Shown in pieces: positions 16,710 through 56,520 of a stretch of DNA of 64,000 bases. Origin of the DNA: an uncultured Pelagibacteraceae bacterium (lineage in GTDB: Bacteria; Pseudomonadota; Alphaproteobacteria; Pelagibacterales; Pelagibacteraceae); NCBI GenBank assembly GCA_902545635.1, contig CACCGT010000005.1:26918-90917 (forward strand), given 5' to 3'. Every line of letters begins with the position of its first letter. Position 1 is the first letter of the stretch. A program made the position numbers and the translations under genes. The notes below the pieces were generated by a model. The model saw nothing but the letters and a program-made list of their open reading frames with translations. It ran no database searches and was not told the origin of the DNA.

Positions 16710-16949
16710 ATGACTGCAAATATCAGAATATTAAAATGGACAAGCACAGTTTTGACGCTTTTAGGAATATTAACTTTTTATTTAGATTACTATCCTTATA
16801 GCATGATACCTCACAGTTTAGGTATAATCGGTTGGACTATTGTTGGTACCATTACAAAGGATAAACCTTTATTAACAAATTTTTCACTACAAATCCCGAT
16901 AATGATTGCAGGTATAATTAAGTATTCTTATACAACTGGGTTATTTTAA
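16710..16949 (+). CDS. Small membrane protein
   Basis: 79 aa, hydrophobic segments; good upstream AAGGAGAG; 3' end abuts/overlaps phnM. Confidence 0.65.
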   Translation: MTANIRILKWTSTVLTLLGILTFYLDYYPYSMIPHSLGIIGWTIVGTITKDKPLLTNFSLQIPIMIAGIIKYSYTTGLF

Positions 16950-18085
16950 CTTACTTGGATTCCGTTTGACCAAACATTTTTTACAACTGGTAAATTTTGA
17001 TAAATTTTAAACCTTATTAAATCTGCTCTCTTATTATTGTCAATGGAACCCCTGTCATTTAAATTTGTAGCTATAGACGGAGCGTGACTAGCTGCTGCAA
17101 ATGCTTTTGGAAGATTATCAATTTCTAAACCCCATTTGACAACAGATATAATTAATGATGATGGAATATAATCTGAGCTTAAGATATCTAAACAATCATT
17201 TTCTAAGAGTTCTTTTGCAGATATATTGCCAGAGTGTGAACCTCCTCTAAGTAAATTAGGAGATCCCATCATAACTTTAATATTGTAATCTTTAGAAGTT
17301 TTGGCTGCTTCTAATGTTGTTGGAAATTCAGCCAATTTTACTCCATATTTATTTGAATTATGAACATCATTTTCTGTGGTATCGTCGTGACTAGCCAAAA
17401 TACAATCATATGATGATTTAAATTCTAAAATTTTATCTATGTGTTTCTTGCTATTTTTTTTTTGAAGATTTTTTAAGTGATCAAAATGAATTTCCATTTC
17501 ATTTTCTGTCATACCGTGTTTAATTGAAAGATATTCTTTGTACTTATCTATAACTCTAAATTGCCTCTGACCTGGTGTATGATCCATTATACTAATCAGT
17601 TTTACATCGTGAGTTTCATTGTATTCGTCTAATTCATCAATCAAATTCTCCGAACAAGTTTCAGCTCTTAAATGTATTTTGTGATCAATCTTGAGAATAT
17701 TATCTTTTTTAAAACTTGAAATTATATCCGAACAGTTTTTTGCATATTTTTTATATTTTCCTGTTTTTTCAATAGAACCAACTCTTAATGCATCAAAAAC
17801 TGTAGTTATTCCAACAGATGCTAATTCTCTATCATGAGATAAAATTGCATTTTCTACTGGAAATGAAACTTTAGGTCTTGGTGTCATGTGTCTTTCAAGA
17901 TTGTCAGTATGTAATTCAACCAATCCTGGCGAAATATAATCTTTTTCGCAGTCTATAGAACTTTTGTTATTACTTAATCCACTACTTATATCGACAATCT
18001 TGTTATCTTTAATCCTGATATGACCATGAACGATTTCATCTTTTTTAATTATCATGGCATTGTTTAAAATATATTCATGCATCAC
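16946..18085 (-). CDS. phnM: Alpha-D-ribose 1-methylphosphonate 5-triphosphate diphosphatase
   Basis: 379 aa; DYISPGLVELHTDNLERHMTPRPKVSFP, MDHTPGQRQF, LASHDDTTENDV, LSSDYIPSSLI. Confidence 0.95.
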   Translation of the reverse strand: MMHEYILNNAMIIKKDEIVHGHIRIKDNKIVDISSGLSNNKSSIDCEKDYISPGLVELHTDNLERHMTPRPKVSFPVENAILSHDRELASVGITTVFDALRVGSIEKTGKYKKYAKNCSDIISSFKKDNILKIDHKIHLRAETCSENLIDELDEYNETHDVKLISIMDHTPGQRQFRVIDKYKEYLSIKHGMTENEMEIHFDHLKNLQKKNSKKHIDKILEFKSSYDCILASHDDTTENDVHNSNKYGVKLAEFPTTLEAAKTSKDYNIKVMMGSPNLLRGGSHSGNISAKELLENDCLDILSSDYIPSSLIISVVKWGLEIDNLPKAFAAASHAPSIATNLNDRGSIDNNKRADLIRFKIYQNLPVVKNVWSNGIQVS

Positions 18086-18157: not shown

Positions 18158-18871
18158 ATGAAAAAATATTCTAGATACGCTATTTATTATGCACCTCCAA
18201 AAGAGAGTAGTCTAGAAGAATTTGGCAGATATTGGTTCGGTTGGGATCCACTTAATGCAAAGTTAATAAATAACAAACATAGAATTAATTATCTAAACAG
18301 ATTTGGAATTAAAAACTTAATAAACATAGATAAAAATGTTTTAATTGCAAAGAAATATGGGTTTCACGGCACACTTATTCCTCCTTTTAAACTAAACAAA
18401 AATTATAGTACCAATACATTATTTAAAAAAACTGAGGAAATAGCAAAAAAATTCAAAAAATTTAAATTTTATAAATTTAAATTAAAAAAAATGAATAATT
18501 TTTATGCTTTTGTTCAAAATAAAAAAAATAATAACATTAATAATTTATCAAATAGACTAGTTAGAGAATTATTTAAATTTAGGTCACCTCTTACAAAAAA
18601 AGAAATTGATAGAAGAAATCCCTCTAAACTAAGTAAATTACAATTAAATATTTTATATAAATGGGGATACCCCTATTTAATGTCAGAATTTAATTTCCAT
18701 ATGACCCTTGCATCAGAGGTCACAGGAAACAAATTGTACCTTGAGTTAAAAAAAATTGAAAGAAACAAAGAAATCATTTTAAATGAAATAAATAATTTTG
18801 ATAAAATATATATATTTGGTGAAAACCAAAAAGGAATGTTTGAGAATTTAGAAAATTTTTCACTTAGCTAA
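18158..18871 (+). CDS. DUF1045 phosphonate-metabolism protein (2H phosphoesterase-like)
   Basis: 237 aa; YAIYYAPP..., two HxT motifs (GFHGTLIPPFKL, FNFHMTLASEV); between phnN and phnM. Confidence 0.88.
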   Translation: MKKYSRYAIYYAPPKESSLEEFGRYWFGWDPLNAKLINNKHRINYLNRFGIKNLINIDKNVLIAKKYGFHGTLIPPFKLNKNYSTNTLFKKTEEIAKKFKKFKFYKFKLKKMNNFYAFVQNKKNNNINNLSNRLVRELFKFRSPLTKKEIDRRNPSKLSKLQLNILYKWGYPYLMSEFNFHMTLASEVTGNKLYLELKKIERNKEIILNEINNFDKIYIFGENQKGMFENLENFSLS

Positions 18872-19396
18872 AATTATTTTTTTCAATTTATTTACACCTA
18901 TAGCTATTGATTTATTATTATTTATAGTAATTATATTTTTCGGTAGTAAATTAATTTTTCTTTTTATCCTTTTATTAATTGATTTTTTGTCTTCTCTAGC
19001 TCGATTTACAAGTCTCTTTTTAATAATTGTTGATGGGGCAATAATATTAATTATTTTAACATTATTAACTTTTTTTTTTACTTTAAAAAGTACTTTTCTT
19101 GATCCATTAAAAATTACTGTTTTACCTTCCTCTATTTTTTTTATTTCCTTAAATGGAATACCGTATGAAAAACCATGAGCTTTCCAGTAAACAAAGAAAT
19201 GTTTTTTTAAAATCTTATCTTCAAAATTTTTAATTGATATGCTGTAATGATCTTCATTTTTAATATCTTTTTTCCTAGTAATGTACCTTTTTACCAAAAT
19301 GGAATTAGGAATTTTTTTAATTACTTTTTTTAATAAAGTATCTTTTCCTGATCCTGATGGTCCAACGACTACGATAAGCTGACCGTTATTTTGCAT
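18860..19396 (-). CDS. phnN: Ribose 1,5-bisphosphate phosphokinase
   Basis: 178 aa; LIVVVGPSGSGKDTLL, guanylate-kinase-like; phn cluster. Confidence 0.93.
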   Translation of the reverse strand: MQNNGQLIVVVGPSGSGKDTLLKKVIKKIPNSILVKRYITRKKDIKNEDHYSISIKNFEDKILKKHFFVYWKAHGFSYGIPFKEIKKIEEGKTVIFNGSRKVLFKVKKKVNNVKIINIIAPSTIIKKRLVNRAREDKKSINKRIKRKINLLPKNIITINNNKSIAIGVNKLKKIILAK

Positions 19397-20063
19397 CTGA
19401 TATTTTTGTAATATCTATTTCCCTAGCATTTAAATATTTACGTGAATATTCATCATGAAAAATACCAATTATTGAAGATCCACTATCCTTTTTTTCATTA
19501 ATCAAATTCAAAACAATATCTTTGTTAACACTATCTAAACTAGCAGTTGGTTCATCTAGTAATAAACATGGATAATTTCTAATCAGTCCCCTAGCAACAT
19601 TAACTCTTTGTTGTTCTCCACCTGAAAAAGTTAGTGGCGATAAATTCCATAAGTTTTTATCTATATTAAGTTTTAGTAAAATTTTTTCAGCTTTTTCACG
19701 AACTTCATCTTGATCTGAATTTATTTCTAATAAGGGCTCCATAACAATTTCAATTGTAGGAACACGAGGTATCACTCTTAGAAATTGACTAACATATCCT
19801 ATTATATTTTTTCTAAGTTCAATAATATTTCTCGGATATGTATGATCTATGTTGTGATTATTAATTTTAATTTGTCCTGATTGAAAAACATAGTTTCCAT
19901 AAATCATTTTTAAAATACTAGACTTTCCAACACCTGATGGTCCTGTTAACGCTACAATTTCTCCAGGATTAATTTTCAAATTCAAATTATTAAAAACTAA
20001 TATGTTTGTTTTGCCCTGATTATGAAGTGTAAATTTTTTTGTAATTTTATTTAGTTCAATCAT
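19386..20063 (-). CDS. phnL: Phosphonate C-P lyase system protein PhnL
   Basis: 225 aa ABC protein; GPSGVGKSSILKMIYGNY, GYVSQFLRVIPRV, LTFSGGEQQRVNVARG. Confidence 0.95.
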   Translation of the reverse strand: MIELNKITKKFTLHNQGKTNILVFNNLNLKINPGEIVALTGPSGVGKSSILKMIYGNYVFQSGQIKINNHNIDHTYPRNIIELRKNIIGYVSQFLRVIPRVPTIEIVMEPLLEINSDQDEVREKAEKILLKLNIDKNLWNLSPLTFSGGEQQRVNVARGLIRNYPCLLLDEPTASLDSVNKDIVLNLINEKKDSGSSIIGIFHDEYSRKYLNAREIDITKISDAK

Positions 20064-20065
20064 TT

Positions 20066-20833
20066 TTAAACCTGTAATACTGAACTAACTAATAACTGAG
20101 TATAAGAATGTTGCGGATCATCTAGTACCTGATCACAAAGTCCAGACTCAACAGCCTCCCCATTTTTCATAACAATAATTTTATCAGCTAACAATCTAAT
20201 CACTGCTAAATCGTGAGAAACGATTACAACTGATAAATTTAATTCTCTAACTAATTTTCTTAACAAATCTAAAATTTTTGCTTGAACAGAAACATCAAGA
20301 CCTCCTGTTGGTTCGTCCATGAAAATTATTTTAGGACTCGTAACCAAATTTTTTGCTATTTGTAATCTTTGCAACATTCCACCAGAAAATGTTCTTGGAA
20401 AATCATCTACTCTACTTTTATCGATTTCTACTTTATCTAACCATTTAAAAATAGTTTGCCTAATATTTCCATAATTTCTTTGTCCAATCGACATTAATCT
20501 TTCACTAATATTTCCACCAGCACTTACATCTAATCTTAAACCGTCTCTAGGATTTTGGTGAACAAAAGCTAATTCAGTTCTTATCAATAACCTTTTCAAT
20601 GACTCAGATATTTCTAGAAAATCAATCGTTTCATTACCTGTTTCAATTAAGATTTTTCCACTATCAGGAATAAGATTGCCTGATATGGAATTTATAAAAG
20701 TTGTTTTTCCTGAGCCAGATTCTCCTACTACACCAACGACTTCCCCAGGATATAATGTCAAATTCATATTTTTGCATCCCACTTGATTACCGTAATATTT
20801 GTTTAAATTATGAACTGACAAAATTGGTTGCAT
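20066..20833 (-). CDS. phnK: Phosphonate C-P lyase system protein PhnK
   Basis: 255 aa ABC protein; YYGNQVGCKNMNLTLYPGEVVGVVGESGSGKTT, VHQNPRDGLRLDVSAGGNI. Confidence 0.95.
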   Translation of the reverse strand: MQPILSVHNLNKYYGNQVGCKNMNLTLYPGEVVGVVGESGSGKTTFINSISGNLIPDSGKILIETGNETIDFLEISESLKRLLIRTELAFVHQNPRDGLRLDVSAGGNISERLMSIGQRNYGNIRQTIFKWLDKVEIDKSRVDDFPRTFSGGMLQRLQIAKNLVTSPKIIFMDEPTGGLDVSVQAKILDLLRKLVRELNLSVVIVSHDLAVIRLLADKIIVMKNGEAVESGLCDQVLDDPQHSYTQLLVSSVLQV

Positions 20834-21715
20834 TTAATTATTTTCCATTCTTTGATTACAATAATTTGTATCTGAACATATAAATGATCTATTACCGTCA
20901 TCATCAGTAATTATTTCATCTAAAAAACTCTCATTTGATCCACAAATAGAACATTTATGAGGTGCCTTTGAGGGATCAAATGGATAATCTTCAAAATCAA
21001 GACTCGTTACTTCAGTATAAGGTGGTATTGCATAAATTCTTTGTTCTCTTCCTGCTCCAAATAATTGAATAGCAGGGTTATTGTTCATTTTTGGGTTATC
21101 AAATTTTGGAATAGGTGATGGGTCCATTATATATCTATCATTTGTCTTTACCGGATAAGCATATGCTGTTTCTATATGACCATTTTTGGTAATATCTTCA
21201 TATAACTTTACATGCATAATTCCATATTCTGATAGTGCATGCATTTTTTTAGTTTCTTGATATCTTGGTTCTAAAAACGCAAGAGGTTCTGGTATTGGAA
21301 CCTGATAAACAAGTATTTGTTTTTCTTTTAACTTTTCTTCTGGAATTCTGTGTCTTGTCTGAATTATCGAAGCTTGGCTTGTTTTTTCTGTGGTCTTAAT
21401 ATTAGCAGTTTTTTTAAAGAAATTTCTAATTGAAACTGCGTTTGTAGTATCATCTGCTCCTTGGTCAATAACTTTTATCACATCGTCAGTTGTTAAACAT
21501 GACGATGTTACTTGAACCCCTCCTGTTCCCCATCCGTATGGCATAGGCATTTCTCTAGATGAAAATGGAACTTGATAACCTGGTATACAAAGAGCTTTAA
21601 TCAAAGCTCTTCTTATCATTCTTTTTGTATTTTCGTCTAAATAAGCAAAATTATAAATTTCATCTTGAGCTGCAACAGTATTTTTTTTATTTTTAAATTT
21701 AAGTACGTTGTTCAT
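20834..21715 (-). CDS. phnJ: Alpha-D-ribose 1-methylphosphonate 5-phosphate C-P lyase
   Basis: 293 aa; PYGWGTGGVQVTSSCL; radical-SAM Cys array CSIC-x21-CSDTNYC. Confidence 0.97.
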   Translation of the reverse strand: MNNVLKFKNKKNTVAAQDEIYNFAYLDENTKRMIRRALIKALCIPGYQVPFSSREMPMPYGWGTGGVQVTSSCLTTDDVIKVIDQGADDTTNAVSIRNFFKKTANIKTTEKTSQASIIQTRHRIPEEKLKEKQILVYQVPIPEPLAFLEPRYQETKKMHALSEYGIMHVKLYEDITKNGHIETAYAYPVKTNDRYIMDPSPIPKFDNPKMNNNPAIQLFGAGREQRIYAIPPYTEVTSLDFEDYPFDPSKAPHKCSICGSNESFLDEIITDDDGNRSFICSDTNYCNQRMENN

Positions 21716-22778
21716 TTTTTTTATACTCTTCTCTAATTTTTCTTACTAAATCCAATTCCGCCTGAAAATCTACATAATGAGGTAATTTGATATGTTCTAA
21801 AAAACCTGTGGCTTGAATATTATCACAATGAGATATAACAAATTCTTCATCTTGAGCAGCAACACCTAAGTACTCCTCACCAAATTCTTTCCATCTCATT
21901 GATCTGTCAACCAAAGCCATAGAAATAGCTTTTCTCTCTAATTGACCAAAAACTAAACCATATCCACGGGTAAATTGAGCAGGTATTTTTTTACTACCTT
22001 TAAATTGGTTTACTGACTCACACTCAGTAAACATGACATCAGCAATATTTATTTCTATACCTAATTCTGGAATTTCAAATTGAACCTCAACGTAACCAGT
22101 TCTTAATTCACCAACAAATGCATGGTTTCTAGCATAACCTCTCTGTGTTGAGTAAGCTAAACCAAGAAGAAAACCCTCATCTCCTCTTGAAAGAGATTGC
22201 AATCGTTCAGATCTTGTTAAAGGAAAATTAATTGGGTTTCTTGTAATATCTTTAGATGTTTTGCCACTAGGTATTTCTTTCTGAATTAATCCTTCTTTAT
22301 TTAAAAAGCTTAAAACATGCGGGATTTCTTTATCATCATATTTTTCAATCTTAGCTTTTTCATACTCACCATCAGCAAGAAGTTTGAAGTCAAGTAAACG
22401 GTGTGTGTAGTCAAATGTTGGGCCTAACTTTTGTTTACCTGGGATATCTTTAAATGTTGCAGATATTCTTCTTAGACATAACATTTTGCCAGTTTCGATA
22501 GGTTTGCTTGAACCAATTCTAGGTAAAGTAGTTCTATAGGCTCTCATTAGAAAAATTGCTTCAATCAAGTCACCTCTAGACTGTTTGATTGCAAGAGCAG
22601 ACAAATCTTTGTCATATAAAGATCCTTCTGACATAACTCTATCAACACTTAAAGTTAGTTGTTCACTAATTTGTTTAATATTTAGTTCTGCTATATTTAC
22701 ATCCCCTCTTCTTATTTCGGATAACCAGGAATGTGCGTTATTTATTGCCTTTTCCCCACCTTTTACTGATACATACAT
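21699..22778 (-). CDS. phnI: Carbon-phosphorus lyase complex subunit PhnI
   Basis: 359 aa; MYVSVKGGEKAINNAHSWL, GYARNHAFVGELRTGYVEV. Confidence 0.97.
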   Translation of the reverse strand: MYVSVKGGEKAINNAHSWLSEIRRGDVNIAELNIKQISEQLTLSVDRVMSEGSLYDKDLSALAIKQSRGDLIEAIFLMRAYRTTLPRIGSSKPIETGKMLCLRRISATFKDIPGKQKLGPTFDYTHRLLDFKLLADGEYEKAKIEKYDDKEIPHVLSFLNKEGLIQKEIPSGKTSKDITRNPINFPLTRSERLQSLSRGDEGFLLGLAYSTQRGYARNHAFVGELRTGYVEVQFEIPELGIEINIADVMFTECESVNQFKGSKKIPAQFTRGYGLVFGQLERKAISMALVDRSMRWKEFGEEYLGVAAQDEEFVISHCDNIQATGFLEHIKLPHYVDFQAELDLVRKIREEYKKNEQRT

Positions 22779-22779
22779 T

Positions 22780-23334
22780 TTATAGCTCTCCTATTTTCAA
22801 TGATCTTGGTATTGAATAAAATTTATCATTATCAACAAAATAAAAATCAAGTCCTAATGGAAATTGCTGGTTATTTTTTTTTATAATCTCTCTATCAGGT
22901 AAAAATATACTTTTAGAACTTTTAATACCAGGACCAGTAATTATGGCATTTGGTTTTTCAAATTTAGACTGGCAAATAATAGTGCACGATTGATCAGGAT
23001 TTTGGTCGTCCCCTTTTTTAAATTCATCTAATGGTAAAAGATCATCCCAAATACCAATTGCAAAATTTGCATTTTTTTTATCTGTAATATTTGCACCTGT
23101 ATTAAATTTAATCCAATCAATAGTTTCTGGATTGTTAATATCACGACCTAAAAAAATATTCGAATAACTGTCACAAAAAGTTTTTATAATTGAACAACTG
23201 GCTGAAAACATTTTTGAAGGCGAATTTATACTGTCTAATATTTCGATCGAACCAGGATATGAAGTTGCAAACAAAATACTTCTAAAATAATCAGCACTTG
23301 TTTGAGAATTATTTTTTTTAGAAACAACTTCCAT
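22780..23334 (-). CDS. phnH: Phosphonate C-P lyase subunit PhnH
   Basis: 184 aa; GPGIKSSKSIFLP, FPLGLDFYFVDNDKFYSIPRSLKI. Confidence 0.93.
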   Translation of the reverse strand: MEVVSKKNNSQTSADYFRSILFATSYPGSIEILDSINSPSKMFSASCSIIKTFCDSYSNIFLGRDINNPETIDWIKFNTGANITDKKNANFAIGIWDDLLPLDEFKKGDDQNPDQSCTIICQSKFEKPNAIITGPGIKSSKSIFLPDREIIKKNNQQFPLGLDFYFVDNDKFYSIPRSLKIGEL

Positions 23335-23337
23335 AGA

Positions 23338-23781
23338 TTATTTATCCTCACCTCTTACCAAGGTAAAAAAATCAACTTTAGTAGCTTCTGTTTTAGATAA
23401 TATTTCATTTCTTTTGTTATTTTTATATTTAATTAATTTATCAATTATATTTCTTTTAATTATTTCTTTTTTTTCAGTTTGCATCAATGCATCACACAAA
23501 GCTGCAATTTTGGATTTATATTTATTTCTACCTTGAACATAACCATGTCCTTGAATTTTTTTATCTAAACTTAATGAACATCTCGTTATAGTTACTTCTC
23601 CAACATTAAAATTATCACCTGTGACGCCTGCTTTTCCTTGAACCATAACACTGCCAATCTCAGGTTCTCTTAACCAATTATATTCTATTTTCATATTTAA
23701 ATTGTCCCAAAGCGATATTAGATAATTTTCATCTGCTGTTGCTAAATAACTTAACCATTGTTTTCTTGATTCATTTTTCAT
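23338..23781 (-). CDS. phnG: Phosphonate C-P lyase subunit PhnG
   Basis: LREPEIGSVMVQGKAGVTGDNFNVGEVTITRCSL; start placed at MKNESRKQW (listed ORF begins four codons upstream). Confidence 0.93.
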   Translation of the reverse strand: MKNESRKQWLSYLATADENYLISLWDNLNMKIEYNWLREPEIGSVMVQGKAGVTGDNFNVGEVTITRCSLSLDKKIQGHGYVQGRNKYKSKIAALCDALMQTEKKEIIKRNIIDKLIKYKNNKRNEILSKTEATKVDFFTLVRGEDK

Positions 23782-23785
23782 AATA

Positions 23786-23801
23786 CTATACAACTAGACA
23801 A
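23786..23801. promoter_or_regulatory. Candidate PhnF operator: 8-bp tandem repeat CTATACAA/CTAGACAA
   Basis: 7/8 identical direct repeats immediately upstream of phnG start, in the phnG/phnF divergent spacer; half-sites resemble HutC-subfamily GT(A/C)TA core. Confidence 0.4.
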
Positions 23802-23847: not shown

Positions 23848-24558
23848 ATGACAACAAAAGATTTGCTTTGGAAGGAAATATACAATTCAATCAAAAGAGA
23901 AATTGTTTTAAATAAGTACAAAATTAATAAAAAGTTAGATTCTGAGAATGACTATGCAAAACAATTTAATGTCAATAGACACACTATAAGAAGAGCTTTT
24001 AAAGAACTTAAAGATGATAATTTAATATATTCAAAAAGAGGTCTTGGAGTATTTGTTAAATCATCAAAAATTAATTACTCAATTAGTAAAAACGTACGAT
24101 TTACCGAGAATATACTTCAAGAAAACCAATCTGTAAGAATTGAAATAAAGAGTTTTGATATTGCTGAATGCAATCCTTTTGAAAAAAAAGAACTCAATTT
24201 AAAAAAAAATGATAAAGTTACACGCATAAATAGCATAGGTTTTGTCAACAAGTCACCTTCTGTTATAACCTTCAGATCAATTCCTTATACAAAATTTCCA
24301 AAATTTATTAATCTTTTTGTTAAAAAACAATCAGTAACAAAAGCTTTTCATTTATTGAATATCAAATCAATTAAAAGATCAAAAACTCTAGTCAATGCAG
24401 AAATTGCAGACAAAATAAAATCAAATTTATTAAATATAAATGAGGGTGAAGCATTATTAAAAACTACATCTGTTAATGTCGATTTTAAAAACAATCCTAT
24501 AGAGTTAAGTGAAAGTCATTTTATTGGATCTAAAATTCAATTTTTAATAAAAAATTAG
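23848..24558 (+). CDS. phnF: GntR/HutC-family regulator of phosphonate genes
   Basis: 236 aa; LDSENDYAKQFNVNRHTIRRAFKELKDDNLIYSKRGLGVFV; divergent from phnG. Confidence 0.9.
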   Translation: MTTKDLLWKEIYNSIKREIVLNKYKINKKLDSENDYAKQFNVNRHTIRRAFKELKDDNLIYSKRGLGVFVKSSKINYSISKNVRFTENILQENQSVRIEIKSFDIAECNPFEKKELNLKKNDKVTRINSIGFVNKSPSVITFRSIPYTKFPKFINLFVKKQSVTKAFHLLNIKSIKRSKTLVNAEIADKIKSNLLNINEGEALLKTTSVNVDFKNNPIELSESHFIGSKIQFLIKN

Positions 24559-24665: not shown

Positions 24666-25490
24666 ATGATTATTAAAAAAGTTAACAAATTTTTCGGTGA
24701 TAATCATGCCGTTAAAAACGTTTCTTTTGAGGTTAACAAACCTCAAATGATAGGAATTATAGGTAGATCTGGGGCTGGTAAATCAACATTACTAAGAATT
24801 ATAAATCGACTTACCGACGCAACAGATGGGTCGATTGAAATTGAAGGTCAAAATATTCTAGATTTAAAAAGTAAGGAAAAGAGATCATGGCAAAGAAACT
24901 GTGCAATGATTTTTCAACAATTTAATTTAGTCCCACGATTAGATGTTCTAACAAATGTAATATTAGGCAGATTAAACTATCAGGGCTCATTTAGAGCATC
25001 TTTAAAAATGTTTTCTCGAGATGAAAGAGCTGATGCTTTGATTTTACTTAACAACTTAGGTATGGCTAACACTGCTCTCCAAAGAGCTGAAACATTATCT
25101 GGAGGTCAACAGCAACGTGTAGCTATATGCAGAGCTTTGATGCAAAATCCTAAAATGATTTTAGCAGACGAACCTATAGCATCTTTAGACCCAATGAATG
25201 CAAGAATGGTAATGGAGTCATTAAGAAAAATTCATGATGAAAAAAATTTAACGGTCATTTCAAATCTTCATACACTTGATACAGCGAAAACTTATTGTGA
25301 TCGAATTATTGGAATGAAAGATGGTGAAATAGTCTTTGATGATTTGCCTGAAAAATTATCTGATAAACTTGCAAGAGAAATTTATGGTGCAGAGGCTGAT
25401 GAAGCTTTTGAACCACAAGTAACATCCACTGAGCTTAAAACAAAAAAAAAGATAAATGGAGATGTTGAGAAAGAATTTGCAACTGCATGA
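24666..25490 (+). CDS. phnC: Phosphonate ABC transporter ATP-binding protein
   Basis: 274 aa; [38 protein letters not shown]. Confidence 0.94.
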
Positions 25491-25550
25491 GATCAATAAC
25501 TCATCGTTACAAATAAGTCGTTAGACTAAAATTATAAAAAGGAGATAATT

Positions 25551-26501
25551 ATGTTTAATAAACTAACAAGAGTTATTGCACTTTTGGCTATGGTGTTTTT
25601 TTCAACTCAAGCTAATGCAGTAACTTACACAGGTCCAAAAATGGACTTAAGTAAACACCAACCAGAATTTAGAGTTGGTTTTTTAGGTGACGAAGCAGCT
25701 CAAGATATTATAGCTAGAAATGAATGTTTCATGCCGTATATCGAAGCCGCTTATGGTGTACCTGCTAAATTCTTTACATTTAAAGATTACGCAGGAACAA
25801 TGGAGTCGATGCTAGGTGGTAATCTAGATTACACATGGTTTGGTTCATCCGGATATGCGGGTATGTATCTTAAAGATCCAACTGCAGTAGTACCAGTACT
25901 AACAAGAATGCAGCCAACAGGTGATATGGGTTACTACTCTGTTGCAGTAGCAACTAAAGCATCTGGAATTAAATCAATGGCAGATCTTAAAGGTAAATCT
26001 TTTGGTTGGGCTGACCCTAACTCTACATCAGGTTTTTTAATTCCTTCAATTGAATTAAAGGCTATGGGTATGGACCCAGATACATATTTTTCAAAAACAC
26101 AGTTTTCTGGAGGACATGAAAACAATGTATTAGCGGTAATGAATGGTGATGTTGATGCTGGTGTAACATGGGTATCTGGTGTTGGTAGCTGGGAAGAAGG
26201 ATATTCGTCAGGGAATTTAAGAAAAATGGTTGATAAAGGGATTTTAAATATGGACGACATTGTTCAAATTTGGTCTTCAAAATTAATTCCTAATGGTCCA
26301 ATTGTGATGCCTACTTTTTTACCTGTTAGAGCACACCAAGTAATGATTGGTTTAAAGCAATGGATACACGAGAACGATCCAAAATGTAGCGAAAACGTTG
26401 CAAACGGGATTGTAAAAAAATGGGTTCCGGTGGATCATTCTTTTTACGAATCAGTTGTAGCTGCAAGAAAAGCTAAAATTGAAGCGCAAAAAAATAATTA
26501 A
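25551..26501 (+). CDS. phnD: Phosphonate ABC transporter substrate-binding protein
   Basis: 316 aa; signal peptide; FRVGFLGDEAAQDIIARNECFMPYIEAAYGVPAKFFTFKDYAGTMESMLGGNLDYTWFGSSGY. Confidence 0.95.
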   Translation: MFNKLTRVIALLAMVFFSTQANAVTYTGPKMDLSKHQPEFRVGFLGDEAAQDIIARNECFMPYIEAAYGVPAKFFTFKDYAGTMESMLGGNLDYTWFGSSGYAGMYLKDPTAVVPVLTRMQPTGDMGYYSVAVATKASGIKSMADLKGKSFGWADPNSTSGFLIPSIELKAMGMDPDTYFSKTQFSGGHENNVLAVMNGDVDAGVTWVSGVGSWEEGYSSGNLRKMVDKGILNMDDIVQIWSSKLIPNGPIVMPTFLPVRAHQVMIGLKQWIHENDPKCSENVANGIVKKWVPVDHSFYESVVAARKAKIEAQKNN

Positions 26502-26515
26502 TTAAACCCCCTATA

Positions 26516-26550
26516 ATCAGAGGCAAAGACTGTAAATCTTTGCCTCTGAT
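26516..26550 (+). terminator. Strong hairpin between phnD and phnE (partial terminator / mRNA stabiliser)
   Basis: ATCAGAGGCAAAGA-CTGTAAA-TCTTTGCCTCTGAT, perfect 14-bp stem, followed by TTATTTTT. Confidence 0.85.
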
Positions 26551-26565
26551 TTATTTTTAAAAATT

Positions 26566-27420
26566 ATGACAAAAGCCTTACCTGCCAACCTAGAACAAAT
26601 TGAAGTTAATTTAAAAAAATTAACAAACCAGAGAACTAGGTCCTCGCTACTTGGAATTGCAATTCTAATATTAATTTTTTTTGGTGGTACCTTGGTATCG
26701 TTAGAAGCAAATGCAGGGTCTTTTGGAAGAGGTATAGCTAATTTTTTTAACTACCCTAGAGATTTATTTGTAGACACTTTTGAGATGGGATGGAAATATT
26801 GGCCAAGAGTTGTAAAATACATACCTGAATTAATTATTACTTTAAATATTGCTTTATTTTCAACTTCTATAGGTTTTATTTTAGCAATTATATTTGCAAT
26901 TTTTTCAAGTAGGAATCTAATTAGAAACAAAAAAGTTATTCAATTTACAAAATTTTTAATGGATGTGACAAGATCATTTCCAACATTAATAATAGCAATG
27001 GTGTTTTTATATCTAATGGGTAAATCATCTTTACCAGCTGTAATTGCTATAACAATACATACTGCTGGAGCACTTGGTAAATTATTTACAGAGGCTATAG
27101 AAAATTGTGATGGAAAACCTATTGAAGGTTTAAGTTCTGTTGGTGCAACTTGGACACAGAAGATAAGATTTTCAGTTCTTCCCCAGGTACTACCTTTGTT
27201 TTTAAGTTATGGAATATTGAGGTTAGAAATTAATGTTAGAGAATCTACAATATTAGGTTTTGTTGGTGCAGGTGGAATTGGAGAAATGTTAGCGGCTCTA
27301 ATTCAGTGGAATTATGGAGCTGATGTTTTAGCGTGTATGTTCTTACTGGTTGGTACAATAATTGCATTAGATTATTTGTCTGCATATTGGAGACATAAAT
27401 TAATTGGAGCAAATCAATGA
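26566..27420 (+). CDS. phnE: Phosphonate ABC transporter permease 1
   Basis: 284 aa; DVTRSFPTLIIAMVFLYLMG, GALGKLFTEAIENCDGKPIEGLSSVGATWTQKIRFSVLPQVLP. Confidence 0.94.
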   Translation: MTKALPANLEQIEVNLKKLTNQRTRSSLLGIAILILIFFGGTLVSLEANAGSFGRGIANFFNYPRDLFVDTFEMGWKYWPRVVKYIPELIITLNIALFSTSIGFILAIIFAIFSSRNLIRNKKVIQFTKFLMDVTRSFPTLIIAMVFLYLMGKSSLPAVIAITIHTAGALGKLFTEAIENCDGKPIEGLSSVGATWTQKIRFSVLPQVLPLFLSYGILRLEINVRESTILGFVGAGGIGEMLAALIQWNYGADVLACMFLLVGTIIALDYLSAYWRHKLIGANQ

Positions 27421-28817
27421 GTTCTAGTTTAGCTATTCAAAGAGAAAATATTCGTAAATTATTTCCTGACACATTTAAACAAGCCAGAAAGAGTAGATTA
27501 AGAGGCCAAATAATTTTTTTTCTCGTCTTAGTATATTTAATAGTAGGTTTTTTTACTTTAGATGTTGTTGATATCCCAAAAAAATGGAAACCACAAAATG
27601 CTGCTATGTTTGTCTTAGACACATATGCACACAAAGATCATGTAACAATGAAATGGGAAAATCATGAGGATATTAAAATAGCTTTTGAAGGAAATTATAG
27701 AAGTGTTTATGGAAGAGATAATCTTGATAAATCAATTCCAGATTGGTTTTACAAAAATTCTGATAATGTTGGCAATGTAGTTGAGTTTAATAATAAAGGT
27801 AAGGCAATATTGTACAAAGATAAAGTCGAGATTGTAAATTTTCCAAAATATGAGAGAGATTTTACCATAAAATTAAATTCTAATGGCAAACCTTACCTTG
27901 TAGGTTCAGAGGATTTGGTCATAGAAGATTTAAAAGGTTTTAGAATCACAGAAAATAGAGTTGAATTTAGACCAACTTTGTATGAGAGAATTCAAGTATA
28001 TCCAAAAAAAGTTGAAATTCATCGTTACAGTATCGGATGGAAATATTTTTGGTTTGATTTCTCAAGTCCGTTAGAACCATATACCTTTTTCGAAGCACTA
28101 GGTTTGACTTTTTCTAAAGAAAGAGTTGTTCCTGAAATGTCTAATTTAAAACTTTTCTTAACAGAGATTAAGAATAATGAAGCATTTATGCACGGTAGAG
28201 TTTGGTGGGCTATGCTTGAAACAATTGTTATGGCTGTATTAGGGACAATGTTTGCTACAGTTATGGCTCTTCCCTTATCTTTTCTTGCGGCATACAACGT
28301 TACCCCAATTAAAACTCTGAGATTTATGTTGAGAAGATTATTTGATACTTTAAGAGGAATAGATTTTTTAATTTGGAGTTTAATATTTTTAAGAGCTTTT
28401 GGTCCAGGACCCTTCACTGGTATTTTTGCAATTGGTTTTACTGATACAGGTACTTTAGGTAAATTATATTCTGAAGCAATTGAAAATACTGAGAAGAAAC
28501 AACAAGAAGGAGTTCAATCTACAGGGGCTAGCAAATTTCTACAACATAGATTTGGTATAATTCCTCAAATACTTCCAATTTTTGTATCTCAATCCTTATA
28601 CTATTTAGAGTCAAATACTAGAGGAGCCGTAATAATAGGTGCAATGGGTGCAGGAGGAATTGGGTTACAATTTTTAGGTGCGCTAGCTACTGGAAATGAT
28701 TTTGAAAATGTCGCCTACATGGCAATATTAGTTTTGGCTGTAGTAATATTTATGGATAGATTATCTGCTTGGCTTAGAAGAATATTAATTGGATCAGATC
28801 AATTAATTGTAAGGTAA
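27417..28817 (+). CDS. phnE: Phosphonate ABC transporter permease 2 with long soluble N-terminal insert
   Basis: 466 aa; C-term FDTLRGIDFLIWSLIFLRAFGPGPFTGIFAIGFTDTGTLGKLYSEAIENTEKKQQEGVQSTGAS; overlaps phnE1 stop. Confidence 0.92.
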   Translation: MSSSLAIQRENIRKLFPDTFKQARKSRLRGQIIFFLVLVYLIVGFFTLDVVDIPKKWKPQNAAMFVLDTYAHKDHVTMKWENHEDIKIAFEGNYRSVYGRDNLDKSIPDWFYKNSDNVGNVVEFNNKGKAILYKDKVEIVNFPKYERDFTIKLNSNGKPYLVGSEDLVIEDLKGFRITENRVEFRPTLYERIQVYPKKVEIHRYSIGWKYFWFDFSSPLEPYTFFEALGLTFSKERVVPEMSNLKLFLTEIKNNEAFMHGRVWWAMLETIVMAVLGTMFATVMALPLSFLAAYNVTPIKTLRFMLRRLFDTLRGIDFLIWSLIFLRAFGPGPFTGIFAIGFTDTGTLGKLYSEAIENTEKKQQEGVQSTGASKFLQHRFGIIPQILPIFVSQSLYYLESNTRGAVIIGAMGAGGIGLQFLGALATGNDFENVAYMAILVLAVVIFMDRLSAWLRRILIGSDQLIVR

Positions 28818-28884: not shown

Positions 28885-29313
28885 TCAATCTTTCCAGAAT
28901 TTCCACCAAGGTTTTTCTTCCTTTGTTATTTCATTATTGTCAACAACAACTTTAGTTATAGATGGATCCTCTCCATCTACTAATCCTGCTCTAGCAGTTG
29001 TTTTAGCGTCTTCTAATTTTAGTTTTGCCTCAAAAACTCTATTTTCATTACACAATTTCATGCCCTCTTTCATTAATGCTTCTGCCTCAGATGCTTTTTC
29101 GGGACTAGATCTTGAAATATCATTTTTAACAGTGGCTCTTAACATAAGTACGCCAGGGTCTTCACAATTCCCTATTTCATTTTTAAATGTATCCTCAGTA
29201 TTTTGTGAATAACTACTGCCGGCTTGTTGCTCTGTTATTTTAGCATGATTTTCAGCTTGAGTAATAGAAATTGTGGATAAAGTTAATATAAATGAGATTA
29301 AGATTTTATTCAT
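28885..29313 (-). CDS. Secreted/periplasmic hypothetical protein ending in KPWWKFWKD
   Basis: 142 aa; signal peptide ISITQAENHA; two Cys; acidic helical region. Confidence 0.65.
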   Translation of the reverse strand: MNKILISFILTLSTISITQAENHAKITEQQAGSSYSQNTEDTFKNEIGNCEDPGVLMLRATVKNDISRSSPEKASEAEALMKEGMKLCNENRVFEAKLKLEDAKTTARAGLVDGEDPSITKVVVDNNEITKEEKPWWKFWKD

Positions 29314-29367
29314 AATAATCTATTAACTTACTTTTGTTAAAAAAATGTTAAAGAAATAAAAAAATTT

Positions 29368-30540
29368 GTGAAATATTTGTCTGCATTTTTAATAGGTATA
29401 TCAGTTACCTTTTGTTACAGCAGTTGTATGTATCTGTTCTCAGCGTTGTTGCTAACTTGGGAAAATGAACTTAGTATCTCAAGGAATAATTTAACATTTA
29501 TTTATTCTCTAGGCTTAGTTGTGCATAGTTTACTTTTACCTTTTCTAGGTAAGATTGTAGATAGAAATCTAAGTTTTCCAATGATGTGGACCAGTCCTAT
29601 ACTGTTAGGACTAAGTGTAATTTATCTTTCATCAGTAGATACATATGGTGGATTTTTACTTGCTTGGATACTTGTCAGTGCAACCTCGGGTGGCTGTCTT
29701 TATACGATGCTTTTTAGTGTCATTACTATTAATTTAAAATCAAAGGCCAAAACATCTATTGCAATAATTACTTTATTTGCTGGATTTGCAAGCACATACA
29801 CATTTCCTACTGCTACTTATTTAACAGAACAATATGACTGGAGGTTTACTGTATTTATTTTTGGAATATTAAATATATTGATTAGTTCACCAGCTAATTA
29901 TTTTGGTTTCAAAAATATAATTATAAAAGAATTTAAAAAAATTGAAAAGAAAACAGATCAAAATTCAAAGCTTAAAATAATACTTAAAGATTATAGATTT
30001 TGGTTATTTAGTTTTTCATTGTTTGTTATTGGATTTAATATTGGTGCTATTACAACTCATGTAATTCCAATGTTGCAGGAAAAAGGGATGAGTCTATCCC
30101 AAGCTGTATTGACAGCATCTCTGTTTGGACCAGGACAAGTAATAGGTAGAATTTTAGTTATGATATATGGAGGTGATAAGTCAAATTTAAAATTATTTGT
30201 AATTTGTTTTTACTCGATGGTAGTTGGAATGATATTTTTATACTTTATAAATATTAATCATTACTTAGCATTTTTATTTGTTTTATTTAATAGTTCAGCA
30301 TATGGCAGTATGGCTATTTTAAAACCTTTGGTTCAAAATGATACTTTTGGCCAAAAAAACTTTGGCAATATTCATGGTATTTTAGCTTTGCAATATATGA
30401 TTGGTAGTATTGCTGGTCCATGGATTGGTTCGTTGGTATGGAATGTAGGAGGATATGATTTGTTAATATTAGTATTTTTTGTTTTAGCAATATTTGGTAA
30501 CTCGACAGCAATTTTTTTAAACAAAAAAAAGTTTATTTAA
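29368..30540 (+). CDS. MFS transporter (GTG start)
   Basis: 390 aa; about 12 hydrophobic segments, LGKIVDRNLSFP, LFGPGQVIGRILV. Confidence 0.82.
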   Translation: MKYLSAFLIGISVTFCYSSCMYLFSALLLTWENELSISRNNLTFIYSLGLVVHSLLLPFLGKIVDRNLSFPMMWTSPILLGLSVIYLSSVDTYGGFLLAWILVSATSGGCLYTMLFSVITINLKSKAKTSIAIITLFAGFASTYTFPTATYLTEQYDWRFTVFIFGILNILISSPANYFGFKNIIIKEFKKIEKKTDQNSKLKIILKDYRFWLFSFSLFVIGFNIGAITTHVIPMLQEKGMSLSQAVLTASLFGPGQVIGRILVMIYGGDKSNLKLFVICFYSMVVGMIFLYFININHYLAFLFVLFNSSAYGSMAILKPLVQNDTFGQKNFGNIHGILALQYMIGSIAGPWIGSLVWNVGGYDLLILVFFVLAIFGNSTAIFLNKKKFI

Positions 30541-31087
30541 AGCTTCTCTCTACGTGTTTGTAAAAATAATTTATATTTGGAATTTCTAAATTTTCAATTT
30601 TAGCAAGATCATCATATTTTCTTAATCTAACTGCATCTTGCATAAAAGGTTGTTTAATAAATTCGTTTGCTTCCTCTTTGGAAAAACTTCCTCCTTGGAC
30701 ATCTAAACTTCGTTTTGAAGCAATAGATAAAGACTCATAATAACCTTTTTCACAATAAACCAAATATCTTTTAGCCGGAACATGTCCTTTAATTAATATT
30801 GTAACATCTTCTGGAAAAAATCTAGAAAGAAAAAGAGATCCTGAATTTTCATGCTTTTTATCTATTCCTTTTTTTATGGCTTCTTTGTCATTATTAATTA
30901 AGTGACCAATATCATGGAATAGGGCTGCAGTAATAAAAAAATGGTTTTCATTATTTTTTTTTGCCAATAATGCGCATTGAATTGCATGTTCTAGTTGTGA
31001 AACTTTTTCATTTCCATATTGTTTGTCTGATCCAATTTCTTCTATAATTTTAAATAAATTGGCAATATTTGACATATTATCCATCAT
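30533..31087 (-). CDS. HD-domain protein of the PhnZ/TmpB-type mixed-valent diiron oxygenase group
   Basis: 184 aa; Y24-x2-E27, QLEH34AIQCALLA, FH58D59IGH, H79ENSG, IKGH102VPAK, MQDAVRLRKYDD159. Confidence 0.8.
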   Translation of the reverse strand: MMDNMSNIANLFKIIEEIGSDKQYGNEKVSQLEHAIQCALLAKKNNENHFFITAALFHDIGHLINNDKEAIKKGIDKKHENSGSLFLSRFFPEDVTILIKGHVPAKRYLVYCEKGYYESLSIASKRSLDVQGGSFSKEEANEFIKQPFMQDAVRLRKYDDLAKIENLEIPNINYFYKHVERSFK

Positions 31088-31182
31088 ATTCTTTTAAATT
31101 AAAAATGTTTCAGTTTTATTACAATTTAGATTTAGTACTCATTAAGTATAGAAAAAATATTTTATAGTAATAAAAGTTAAAA

Positions 31183-31638
31183 ATGAAAAAACTTTTATTT
31201 GTTTGTACTGGCAATTCTCACAGAAGCATATTGGCCGAAAGTGTAGTTAATAAATTTCATAAAAATAAATTTATTGGTTACAGTGCGGGTAGCAAACCAT
31301 CTGGAATAATTAATAAATATGTCATTAAGTATCTAAATGAAAATAATTTTGATACAAAAAATCTGTCATCAAAAAACTTCAACAAATTCTTGAATGAGAA
31401 AACAAACTTTGATCAGGTATTTACTGTATGTAACAATGCTAGTAATGAAGTTTGTCCAGTCTGGCCATCCCCTGAAAAAATAGTTCATTGGGATATTGAA
31501 GATCCTGTTTATATCATTAATGAGTTAGAGAAGAGTGATAAACCAAATAAAGAAGAGCTGATTTCAACAGAAATACATAAAACTTATTCCAATTTAGAAA
31601 CAAGAATTAATGATTGGATAAAAAATTATGAAATATAG
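31183..31638 (+). CDS. arsC: Arsenate reductase (low-MW phosphatase type)
   Basis: 151 aa; LLFVCTGNSHRSILAE, DQVFTVCNNASNEVCPVWPSPEKIVHWDIEDP. Confidence 0.9.
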   Translation: MKKLLFVCTGNSHRSILAESVVNKFHKNKFIGYSAGSKPSGIINKYVIKYLNENNFDTKNLSSKNFNKFLNEKTNFDQVFTVCNNASNEVCPVWPSPEKIVHWDIEDPVYIINELEKSDKPNKEELISTEIHKTYSNLETRINDWIKNYEI

Positions 31639-32305
31639 TAAGTTTTTTCTTGGAGAGTTTATTGGTAGTTGTTTCCTTGTAATGATTATTGTTGGCTCAG
31701 GAATAATGGCTGAAAATCTTACAAATGACACAGGTATTATGCTTTTAGCCAATACTATAGCAACTGGCGCAGGACTTTTTGTGCTAATAACTGTTTTTAG
31801 TGATGTTTCAGGAGCACATTTTAATCCATTTGTAAGTCTAGCAATGTTTCTTACAAAAAAATTAAAAGGAAATTTATTACCCACATATATATCTGCGCAA
31901 ATTTTAGGTTGTTTGTTAGGTGTAGCACTTGCCAATTTCTTTTTCGAACATCAAATTTTTGAATTATCAACAAAATCAAGGGACGGAATAAATATATTTA
32001 CATCTGAAATTGTAGCAACATTTGGATTGATACTGATAATTTTTGGATCATTAAAGAAAGGAAGTGTGGTAGTGGCCTCATGTGTAGCTTTTTATATCAC
32101 TGCTGGTTATTGGTTTACATCATCTACATCATTTGCAAATCCTGCTGTAGCAATAGCGAGAACATTTACAGAAAGTTTTACTGGAATTAATTATATGTAT
32201 ACTCCAGTTTATATATTAGCAGAAATTATCGGTGCACTTTTTGCTGTATTTGTGGCTAAAAAAATGCTTTTCAATAACAGGACAAGAGATAAAACTATTT
32301 CGTAG
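31628..32305 (+). CDS. MIP/aquaporin family channel (AqpS-like, probable arsenite exit)
   Basis: 225 aa; AHFNPFVSLA and SFANPAVAIARTFT (NPx motifs); overlaps arsC by 11 nt. Confidence 0.87.
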   Translation: MKYSKFFLGEFIGSCFLVMIIVGSGIMAENLTNDTGIMLLANTIATGAGLFVLITVFSDVSGAHFNPFVSLAMFLTKKLKGNLLPTYISAQILGCLLGVALANFFFEHQIFELSTKSRDGINIFTSEIVATFGLILIIFGSLKKGSVVVASCVAFYITAGYWFTSSTSFANPAVAIARTFTESFTGINYMYTPVYILAEIIGALFAVFVAKKMLFNNRTRDKTIS

Positions 32306-35123: not shown

Positions 35124-35975
35124 TTATTTCTCTGTTTGAATTAATCCTTTTATGAACCATTTTTGCAAAAATACTACCACTAAAACTGGGGGGATCATTG
35201 ATAAAATAATATAAGCAAATCTCTCTGCTGTTCTTGGTAAAGCAACTCCCTCATAACTTTCAGTAAATATAATTTTCATTCCCATTACTACAGTCCAATA
35301 TTCCTCACTCGTAGTCATTATTAACGGCCATAAATATTGACTATATCCGTATACAAACATGAATATAAACATCGCTGCAATCATTGTTTTAGATAATGGA
35401 ACTAAAAAATCTATAAAAAATCTCCAACTATTTGCACCATCTAATTTTGCTGATTCAAGTAATTCATCAGGTATAGTTTTATAAAACTGTCTAAAAAAAA
35501 AGGTAGCGGTGGCTGATGCAACCAATGGAAGAACAAGACCTGTGTATGAATTAGTTAAACCTAAATCTGATACAATCTTATAACTTGGAAAAATCCTAAC
35601 CTCCAGAGGCACAAGTAAAGTAATAAAGATTAACCAAAAAATTGGTACAGCTAATTTGAATCTAAAATAAACTAAAGCATAAGCTGACATTGCTGAGATA
35701 ATTACTTTAAGGGTTGCAATTCCTAAAGCCATTATAAAGCTATTTATAAACATTTTTGCAGCAGTCACTTCCTCTGACCAACCACCCTTCTCATTTAAAA
35801 CTTCGTTATAATTTCTTGTTAATTGATCGCCAAGACCAAATTTCATTCCCTCTTTTAAAATAGTTACAGTATCGTGGGTAGAGCTAGCAAATGATAACCA
35901 AATCGGAATTACCATTAATAAAACACCTAGTATAAGTACAATGTGTGCTAAAATTTGTGATAATTTAATTTTCAT
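35124..35975 (-). CDS. ugpE: Glycerol-3-phosphate ABC permease UgpE (copy 1)
   Basis: 283 aa; [59 protein letters not shown]. Confidence 0.93.
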   Translation of the reverse strand: [283 protein letters not shown]

Positions 35976-36793
35976 TTGTCTTGAAAGATCCCTTTAATAA
36001 AATATTTTTGTAATACAATTATAATTAATACTGGTGGTATCATTGACATGATAACAAATGCAAATTTGTTAACAATTGATCCAGACATCATCTTTAATCC
36101 CATGACAACAGTCCAATATTGTTCAGAAGAAGTTACTAATATCGGCCATAAATATTGATTATAACCGAATACAAACATAAATATGAACATTGCAACAATC
36201 ATTGTTTTTGACAATGGCACTAAAAAGTCAATAAAAAATCTCCAAGTATTTGCACCATCCAATTTTGCTGATTCAAGTAATTCATCAGGTATAGTTTTAT
36301 AAAACTGCCTAAAAAATAAAGTAGCTATAGCAGAAGCTGAAATTGGAATAATTAGTCCCCAATATGAGTTTACTAAGTTAAGTGTAGACATAACAGAATA
36401 GGTAGGAAAAATTCTTAACTCCAGAGGGACTAGTATAGTAATAAAAATTATCCAAAATAATAATGTTGCATATTTCACTCTAAAATAAACTAAGACATAT
36501 GCAGTCATAAGAGATGAAATAACTGATAAAAACGCAACTCCAGTTGCCATTAAAAAACTATTTAAAAACATCTTTAATGCAGTAATTTCTTTAAAAAAAC
36601 CACCTTCATATAATAAAACTTTTGTATAATTCTCTAAAAACTTATCTCCTAAAAAAAATTGAAGACCTTGGGTATTAATTATCGAAGCTGTATGAGTTGA
36701 GCTTGCAAAAATTAACCAAACAGGAATTATCATAATAAAAATGCCTATCAAAAGAATTAAATGAGAAAAGTTTGATGAAAAATATCTAATCAT
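35972..36793 (-). CDS. ugpE: Glycerol-3-phosphate ABC permease UgpE (copy 2, tandem paralogue)
   Basis: 273 aa; [59 protein letters not shown]. Confidence 0.92.
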   Translation of the reverse strand: [273 protein letters not shown]

Positions 36794-40357: not shown

Positions 40358-41152
40358 TTATTTAATTCTAGTTTGAATTATTTTGATAATTTTAGGTAAA
40401 TCTTTAATTGTATCTATTACATAGTGAGCGCCTACTTTCTTAAATTTATTCTTGATCTTTTTTCTAAATTTAGTTTTATCTTTAAAAGAAAGTCTATTAA
40501 ATTCGACTTCTGTTTTACCAAATTCATTACCTGAAAATATAACACCCACTACCCACATCCCAGCATTTACTCCCTCTAACAATCCAGGAATAGTGTCATC
40601 AACTTTTATACAATTTGATCCCTTGGTAATATTTAATTCAGAAAAAATTTTATATATTATTTCAGCTGAGGGTCTTCCAATTTTTGTGTATGAAGAACTA
40701 TATGACACATCAGGTATAAATCTTTGTTTTTTTAGTTCTGGCAATATAACATTTAGAATTTCTTCTGAATATCCGGTATTGATTCCTATTTTTATTTTTT
40801 TGTTTTTTATAAAATCTAAAGTTTTTTTACTTCCTGATATAAATTTTGAATGTTTCTTAATTATTTTTTTTAATTCTGGATTAAAAAGTTTAAACAATTT
40901 ATCAATATCTTTATCTGTTGGTTTTGATTTAAATTTTTTTTTCCACTGCGAATTAATTTTTCTTGTTGTTAGCAATGCTTTTATATGGGCTCGTTTTTCA
41001 ATACCCATTGGTCCTATGGCTTGTTTTCGTGTAATTTTAATTCCAAACCTATCAAATAATTCTATAAGAACTTGAGATGGCGCAAGGCTTCCAAAATCTA
41101 TTAATGTGCCAGCTAAATCAAATACAATTCCTTCTATATTGGAATTTTTCAT
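40358..41152 (-). CDS. phnX: Phosphonoacetaldehyde hydrolase (PhnX-like HAD)
   Basis: 264 aa; FDLAGTLIDFGSLAP, PMGIEKRAHIKAL, KVDDTIPGLLEGVNAGMWVVGVIFSGNEFG. Confidence 0.87.
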   Translation of the reverse strand: MKNSNIEGIVFDLAGTLIDFGSLAPSQVLIELFDRFGIKITRKQAIGPMGIEKRAHIKALLTTRKINSQWKKKFKSKPTDKDIDKLFKLFNPELKKIIKKHSKFISGSKKTLDFIKNKKIKIGINTGYSEEILNVILPELKKQRFIPDVSYSSSYTKIGRPSAEIIYKIFSELNITKGSNCIKVDDTIPGLLEGVNAGMWVVGVIFSGNEFGKTEVEFNRLSFKDKTKFRKKIKNKFKKVGAHYVIDTIKDLPKIIKIIQTRIK

Positions 41153-41298
41153 ATGTTTTTTTTCGAATCTTTTAATTAAAATTTAATATTTGAAATTAAT
41201 CATATCTTTAATTGAATAATAATACTGATTTTATTGCTGTTTATTTTGATTTTAACTTGTTTTATTAATGTTACAAAAATATTACAGATTTATTACAT

Positions 41299-52639: not shown

Positions 52640-52657
52640 ATTACAAATTTGTTACAG
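52640..52657 (-). promoter_or_regulatory. Candidate Pho box upstream of pstS
   Basis: minus strand CTGTAAC-AAAT-TTGTAAT: two 7-mers with 4-bp spacer, as in the classical CTGTCAT-AAAT-CTGTCAT; 70 bp upstream of pstS ATG. Confidence 0.72.
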
Positions 52658-52678
52658 TTTTGTTAAATAGGTAACTTT

Positions 52679-56434: not shown

Positions 56435-56520
56435 TTAATCCTTTTTTTTTAATTCAATTTGCACTAGAATCGTTTAATTCTTTGTGCCATAGTAATGTTA
56501 AGGAAATATTAAAATTTATT

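Follow-up and report, generated by a model that had tools for sequence, protein, structure and literature searches.

A PhnZ/TmpB-type diiron HD oxygenase gene linked to the C-P lyase operon of SAR11 bacteria

The window analyzed here, a stretch of 64,000 nucleotides from an uncultured Pelagibacteraceae bacterium, was assigned to SAR11 (Pelagibacter), since its best DNA relatives were Pelagibacteraceae single-cell genomes. It carries a phosphorus island in the order phnM, DUF1045, phnN-G, phnF, phnCDEE, a 142-aa protein, MFS, HD, arsC and aquaporin, followed by GDPD, Ugp-like and then Pst genes. The phnM gene, coding for ribose-1-methylphosphonate-5-triphosphate diphosphatase (16946..18085, – strand), is separated from the C-P lyase operon phnG, phnH, phnI, phnJ, phnK, phnL and phnN (18860..23793, –) by a gene for a DUF1045/TIGR03223 putative phosphonate metabolism protein (18158..18871, +); PhnJ was identified by Pfam PF06007 at 476 bits, with no NCBIfam match. 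The GntR-type regulator gene phnF (23848..24558, +) and the phosphonate ABC importer genes phnC, phnD, phnE1 and phnE2 (24666..28817, +) come next. They are followed by y142, a cassette member encoding a small exported-looking protein of 142 aa with no Pfam match (28885..29313, –), and by a gene for an MFS transporter resembling ArsK and oxalate-formate antiporters (29368..30540, +). The HD-domain gene itself (30533..31087, –) starts with ATG and encodes 184 aa. Divergent from it lies arsC, coding for an LMW arsenate-reductase-like protein (31183..31638, +), which is overlapped by an AqpS-like aquaporin gene (31628..32305, +); arsC plus aquaporin have been reported in SAR11 (PMC6426599). The initial annotation, made from the sequence alone, had placed a C-P lyase operon next door and a convergent MFS gene overlapping the HD gene at positions 30533-30540; both descriptions were correct, the former covering phnG, H, I, J, K, L, N and M plus phnF, C, D, E and E, and the latter an overlap of 8 bp. 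Further along the window, two neighbouring and alike UgpE-like permease genes (35124-36793) were observed in the Ugp-like transporter operon. Near pst/phoR, the region 54612-57408 holds glycosyltransferase, metallophosphoesterase and diacylglycerol-kinase-like genes that resemble HTCC7211-only genes reported to be enriched in the Sargasso Sea (PMC3686209).

The alignment of the HD protein with PhnZ revealed that Y24, E27, H34, H58 and D59 match residues of the same numbers, and that H79, H102, K106 and D159 correspond to H80, H104, K108 and D161, so that every residue named in the initial annotation, from Tyr24 to Asp159, was in place; H62, S124, Q131 and R156 are likewise equivalent to H62, S126, Q133 and R158. 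The diiron ligand set H...HD...H...H...D is thus complete (H34, H58-D59, H79, H102 and D159), and the YxxE loop, a substrate-gated loop in PhnZ/TmpB-type oxygenases (PMC8177086), is conserved as Y24-G-N-E27, as are the substrate lysine and arginine. The protein matched NCBIfam TIGR03276 over its full length (203.1 bits, E=2.4e-60), narrowly missing the cut-off of 214.6 bits, which was exceeded in none of the 397 genomes of the family (SAR11). The equivalog models of PhnZ1 (NF052439; 155.7 bits, E 1e-45) and TmpB (NF049941; 141.4 bits, E 2.8e-41) gave scores under their 300-bit cut-offs, and substrate specificity is not readable from the sequence because the cut-offs of all three models were missed. 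Pfam detected only generic HD (29 bits) and HDOD domains, and a PDB sequence search returned PhnZ (E=1.4e-28) and TmpB (E=5e-27), with no further significant match.

The structure prediction against PhnZ and TmpB proposed with the initial annotation was carried out with AlphaFold, using SAR11 homologues and one viral-contig homologue as input, and yielded a model with pLDDT 76 and pTM 0.73, in which the YxxE loop region was poorly modelled (residues 17-26 at pLDDT under 50). The ten best PDB matches of this model in Foldseek were all PhnZ or TmpB (E 1e-8 to 1e-9, TM 0.72-0.80), PhnZ being the best at E=1.6e-9; the first HD protein other than an oxygenase, a hydrolase, appeared at E=1.4e-2. As judged by residues, family models and fold search, the protein is a PhnZ/TmpB-type diiron HD oxygenase rather than a nucleotide hydrolase, which upholds the assignment proposed at the outset.

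The 95-bp region between the HD gene and arsC contains the element TTGTAA(T/C)AAAACTGAAACAT, which is near-invariant in 20 aligned SAR11 loci. In the window it forms a Pho-box-like direct repeat, TTGTAAT AAAA CTGAAAC (31107..31124, –), oriented like the HD gene and 20 bp upstream of its start codon. A weight matrix was built solely from the three Pho-box repeats, with 11-bp spacing, that precede the window's own pstS (52640..52668, –). By this matrix the HD-promoter repeat ranked 7th of the 127,966 window positions, the chance expectation for such a match in the HD promoter being about 0.004; higher scores were found for the y142 gene, which has its Pho-box-like repeat at 29336-29353 (–), and for a HAD-type hydrolase gene (40358-41152). 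This conserved element strongly suggests that the HD gene is switched on by PhoB under phosphate starvation, a suggestion and not a proof, since the matrix rests on three heptamers. The overlapping repeats of the HAD-type hydrolase gene (– strand), at 41259-41298, were among the strongest in the window, and its product is a probable Pi-starvation phosphatase. A search for E. coli-type Pho boxes (CTGTCAT repeats) was uninformative, with 9 matches against 4.5 expected and equally high counts in 6 of 100 shuffles, and a general promoter scan of the sequence was at chance level only.

The order arsC-HD-MFS-y142-phnE2 and onwards was kept in all 43 SAR11 relatives, as far as their contigs reach, and the identical 8-bp overlap between the HD and MFS genes was present in 41 of them. 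The y142 gene was strictly retained in the C-P lyase cassette; gene content beyond arsC and aquaporin was variable, the aquaporin being absent or divergent in some relatives. Across the SAR11 relatives, HD codons were under purifying selection (dN/dS 0.08-0.16, about 0.1). The HD gene is real, conserved and selected, and it belongs to an enzyme family that is already known, NCBIfam TIGR03276 being named 'phosphonate degradation HD-domain oxygenase'. Among the 397 family genomes, PhnJ was found in 10, and all 10 of these encoded the HD protein at 199-203 bits (hereafter type A); the sole type-A carrier without PhnJ was a genome (G166) whose contig stops inside the cassette, within the MFS gene. 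A comparison of 35 genomes revealed that the cassette MFS (85-100% identity) and the cassette version of arsC (91-99% identity) were confined to the ten type-A genomes, and the remaining 25 had no more than remote relatives of the MFS (23-26%) or an arsC paralogue at 51-56%, which indicates that the cassette was gained or lost as a unit. Two genomes also have short arsC-like fragments of about 50% identity beyond the distal end of the C-P lyase operon (G035:C1:969381-969545 and G342:C1:186792-187028), which may be leftovers of an additional arsC copy.

SAR11 genomes also contain a second HD type (type B), which is more distant and scores 160-174 bits. In the examples examined, the gene is flanked by a TauD-like oxygenase gene on one side and a GMC oxidoreductase gene on the other, or has other TauD-like genes in its vicinity. 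In the genome that carries the window, TauD and GMC oxidoreductase genes are paired within a cluster resembling those for carnitine degradation (L168:6860-9274, G000:C1), and the type-B HD oxygenase found between such genes in other SAR11 genomes suggests that a phosphonate step was gained or lost.

Homologues were examined in 40 further alphaproteobacterial loci, chosen mostly among the best TIGR03276 matches. The HD gene was within a C-P lyase cluster in 14 of them, directly after phnM in 11. For 13 of these 14, no 2-oxoglutarate (2OG) oxygenase was detectable at a distance of up to about 7 kb, and the remaining one had a distant 2OG oxygenase on the opposite strand. These counts are indicative, as the 2OG profiles were small and custom-built and the loci were not sampled at random. 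Some members of the family adjoin TmpA-like or PhnY-like hydroxylase genes in places where C-P lyase is absent. Three have TmpA-like neighbours (L138, L146 and L152) and another (L157) is beside a PhyH protein with phnDCE. In three homologues (L149:6956-7516, L154:6943-7533 and L112:1492-2055), YxxE was replaced by YxxS, so that the amine-contacting glutamate is missing; two of the three are in C-P lyase clusters, and these enzymes may be specific for substrates that lack an amino group. In the phylogenetic tree, C-P-lyase-linked and hydroxylase-linked homologues clustered (4 changes, with 1 of 500 shuffles as low) and did not form single clades. Type A did not fall clearly inside the other C-P lyase group; it was placed (95/93) with L156 and with the hydroxylase-linked L157 and SAR11 type B, although this part of the tree carries long-branch warnings. 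For these reasons we make no claim that the SAR11 gene descends from the HD genes linked to C-P lyase elsewhere. The SAR11 link of the HD gene to C-P lyase may consequently have an independent origin, long branches precluding a firmer statement. The viral collection contained a single HD relative, unrelated to the SAR11 locus, on an IMG/VR contig with a TmpA-TmpB-like pair. On that contig, which may be host DNA next to a provirus, genes for an aldehyde dehydrogenase and TmpA-like and TmpB-like proteins (L170:152-3370) lie beside phage-like DNA polymerase genes.

All characterized HD phosphonate oxygenases are partnered with a hydroxylase, as in PhnY/PhnZ, TmpA/TmpB and the fused PhoF (PMC10574752, PMC8177086). 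For the SAR11 gene, the initial annotation had pointed to the absence of an alpha-ketoglutarate oxygenase from the window, and this absence extends further, with neither PhyH nor TauD family 2OG oxygenases on the whole contig. The description of the enzyme as stand-alone thus held for the window, but the partnerless state is not peculiar to SAR11, as it recurs in other alphaproteobacterial C-P lyase clusters. The search for a distal PhnY/TmpA partner, suggested at the same time, retrieved eight 2OG oxygenases elsewhere in the genome (four PhyH and four TauD, at 82% completeness), though none was co-inherited with the HD gene.

These distal enzymes raise the alternative that the HD enzyme cleaves an alpha-hydroxyphosphonate supplied by a TmpA/GBBH-like or TauD-like 2OG oxygenase, as would fit the partnered state of the characterized systems. 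One of the eight, a 366-aa protein (G000:C2), has TmpA as its best solved relative (5e-40), but gamma-butyrobetaine dioxygenase is nearly equal (2e-36); a TauD (G000:C1) resembles the one flanking the type-B HD gene. Across the 35 SAR11 genomes, however, no 2OG group, as judged by score and length, tracked type A, and TauD proteins similar to TmpA in length were also present in many SAR11 genomes without an HD gene, while the type-A genome G140 (96% complete) had a single TauD match. Taken together with the lack of close partners in other C-P lyase clusters, this renders a distal partner rather unlikely.

The strict association with C-P lyase, and the frequent position beside phnM or phnN in other alphaproteobacteria, would also suit a hydrolase of the C-P lyase pathway, for example one opening ribose 1,2-cyclic phosphate 5-phosphate instead of PhnP. 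This role is quite improbable, since the oxygenase YxxE loop and lysine are conserved and the significant fold matches were to oxygenases only; moreover, the DUF1045/TIGR03223 phosphonate protein is also encoded in the window and in several homologous clusters, and the family's occurrence beside hydroxylases without C-P lyase argues in the same direction. A role with the neighbouring arsenic genes (arsC, aquaporin and ArsK-like MFS), acting on organoarsenicals, was considered too: the divergent arsC and convergent MFS are fixed neighbours whose cassette versions were found, in the 35 genomes, only with the HD gene. Nevertheless, elsewhere the HD family keeps the company of phosphonate genes, and we know of no C-As-cleaving HD oxygenase. 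SAR11 is able to use methylated arsenic, and a promiscuous C-P lyase has been proposed, but other SAR11 arsC copies occur without the HD gene (PMC6426599). The linkage has a simpler reason, since arsenate stress grows along with phosphate scarcity, and an arsenic role for the HD gene is left as highly improbable.

The preferred reading, to which we assign a probability of about two thirds, is that the HD enzyme is a mixed-valent diiron oxygenase, induced through PhoB, that cleaves ready-made, imported alpha-hydroxyphosphonates. Under phosphate starvation, PhoB would turn on the HD gene, and an alpha-hydroxyphosphonate, most likely imported already hydroxylated through PhnCDE, would be the substrate; candidates are hydroxymethylphosphonate and (R)-1-hydroxy-2-aminoethylphosphonate or a close analogue. 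In PhnZ and TmpB, Tyr24 guards the second iron until the alpha-hydroxyphosphonate binds, Glu27 contacts the substrate amino group where present, and O2 binding and alpha-hydrogen abstraction lead to C-P cleavage into phosphate and a carboxylate (PMC8177086, PMC10574752). All residues of this mechanism were found in the SAR11 protein, in which the substrate hydroxyl and phosphonate would bind the diiron centre, and O2 would abstract the alpha hydrogen, after which C-P cleavage would presumably release phosphate and formate or glycine. For the SAR11 enzyme, we infer this chemistry, the import route and the absence of a dedicated hydroxylase from the comparisons above. Hydroxymethylphosphonate is a good substrate candidate, given that the Gimesia maris PhnZ cleaves both this compound and 1-hydroxy-2-aminoethylphosphonate (PMC10574752) and that marine Prochlorococcus uses hydroxymethylphosphonate, the occurrence of which in marine organic matter has been discussed (PMC6581173). 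Such direct cleavage would complement the adjacent C-P lyase by providing a one-enzyme route without ATP or SAM. Weighing against this reading are the hydroxylases of all characterized pairs, the eight candidate partners in trans, the low pLDDT of the YxxE loop region and the tree, in which type A is grouped with hydroxylase-linked homologues.

Compared with known systems, the SAR11 protein shares 34% identity, the metal and main substrate residues and the predicted fold with PhnZ (4MLM, 4N71; 2-amino-1-hydroxyethylphosphonate oxygenase), but its gene lies with C-P lyase and has no adjacent PhnY. Similarly, it shares 33% identity, the YxxE loop, the ligands and the predicted fold with TmpB (6NPA; (R)-1-hydroxy-2-trimethylaminoethylphosphonate oxygenase), whereas no TmpA adjoins the SAR11 gene. 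It scored slightly better on the model of G. maris PhnZ1 (NF052439; hydroxymethylphosphonate dioxygenase) than on that of TmpB, yet a neighbouring PhyH-type PhnY is absent, unlike the alphaproteobacterial pair in L157. With TIGR03276 (Phn-HD) it has in common a full-length match and motifs, and other alphaproteobacterial members are also in C-P lyase clusters; in SAR11, however, the HD gene stands on its own, with arsC on one side and MFS on the other, instead of following phnM in an operon. For the phosphonate/C-P lyase island of Pelagibacter HTCC7211, phnCDEE, phnJ/L/M and an MFS_1 gene have been listed jointly as over-represented at the Sargasso Sea station (PMC3686209). C-P lyase is documented in SAR11 and enriched in Pelagibacter of phosphate-poor seas (PMC6852614), and the passages found in these two papers do not discuss the HD gene.

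More broadly, and tentatively, the HD oxygenases that accompany C-P lyase in alphaproteobacteria, among them SAR11, might be hydroxylase-free scavengers of natural alpha-hydroxyphosphonates, and phosphate-starved SAR11 might make formate from hydroxymethylphosphonate, bypassing C-P lyase; the linkage may have several origins. No answer concerning the role of the HD oxygenase in hydroxylase-less C-P lyase clusters was found in the open-access papers searched, and the SAR11 gene makes this role directly testable. SAR11 are among the most abundant bacteria of the ocean, and their C-P lyase has been put forward as a source of methane in the sea. If these bacteria can also cleave hydroxylated phosphonates by direct oxidation, some of the phosphonate in the sea would be converted into phosphate and formate and not into C-P lyase products.
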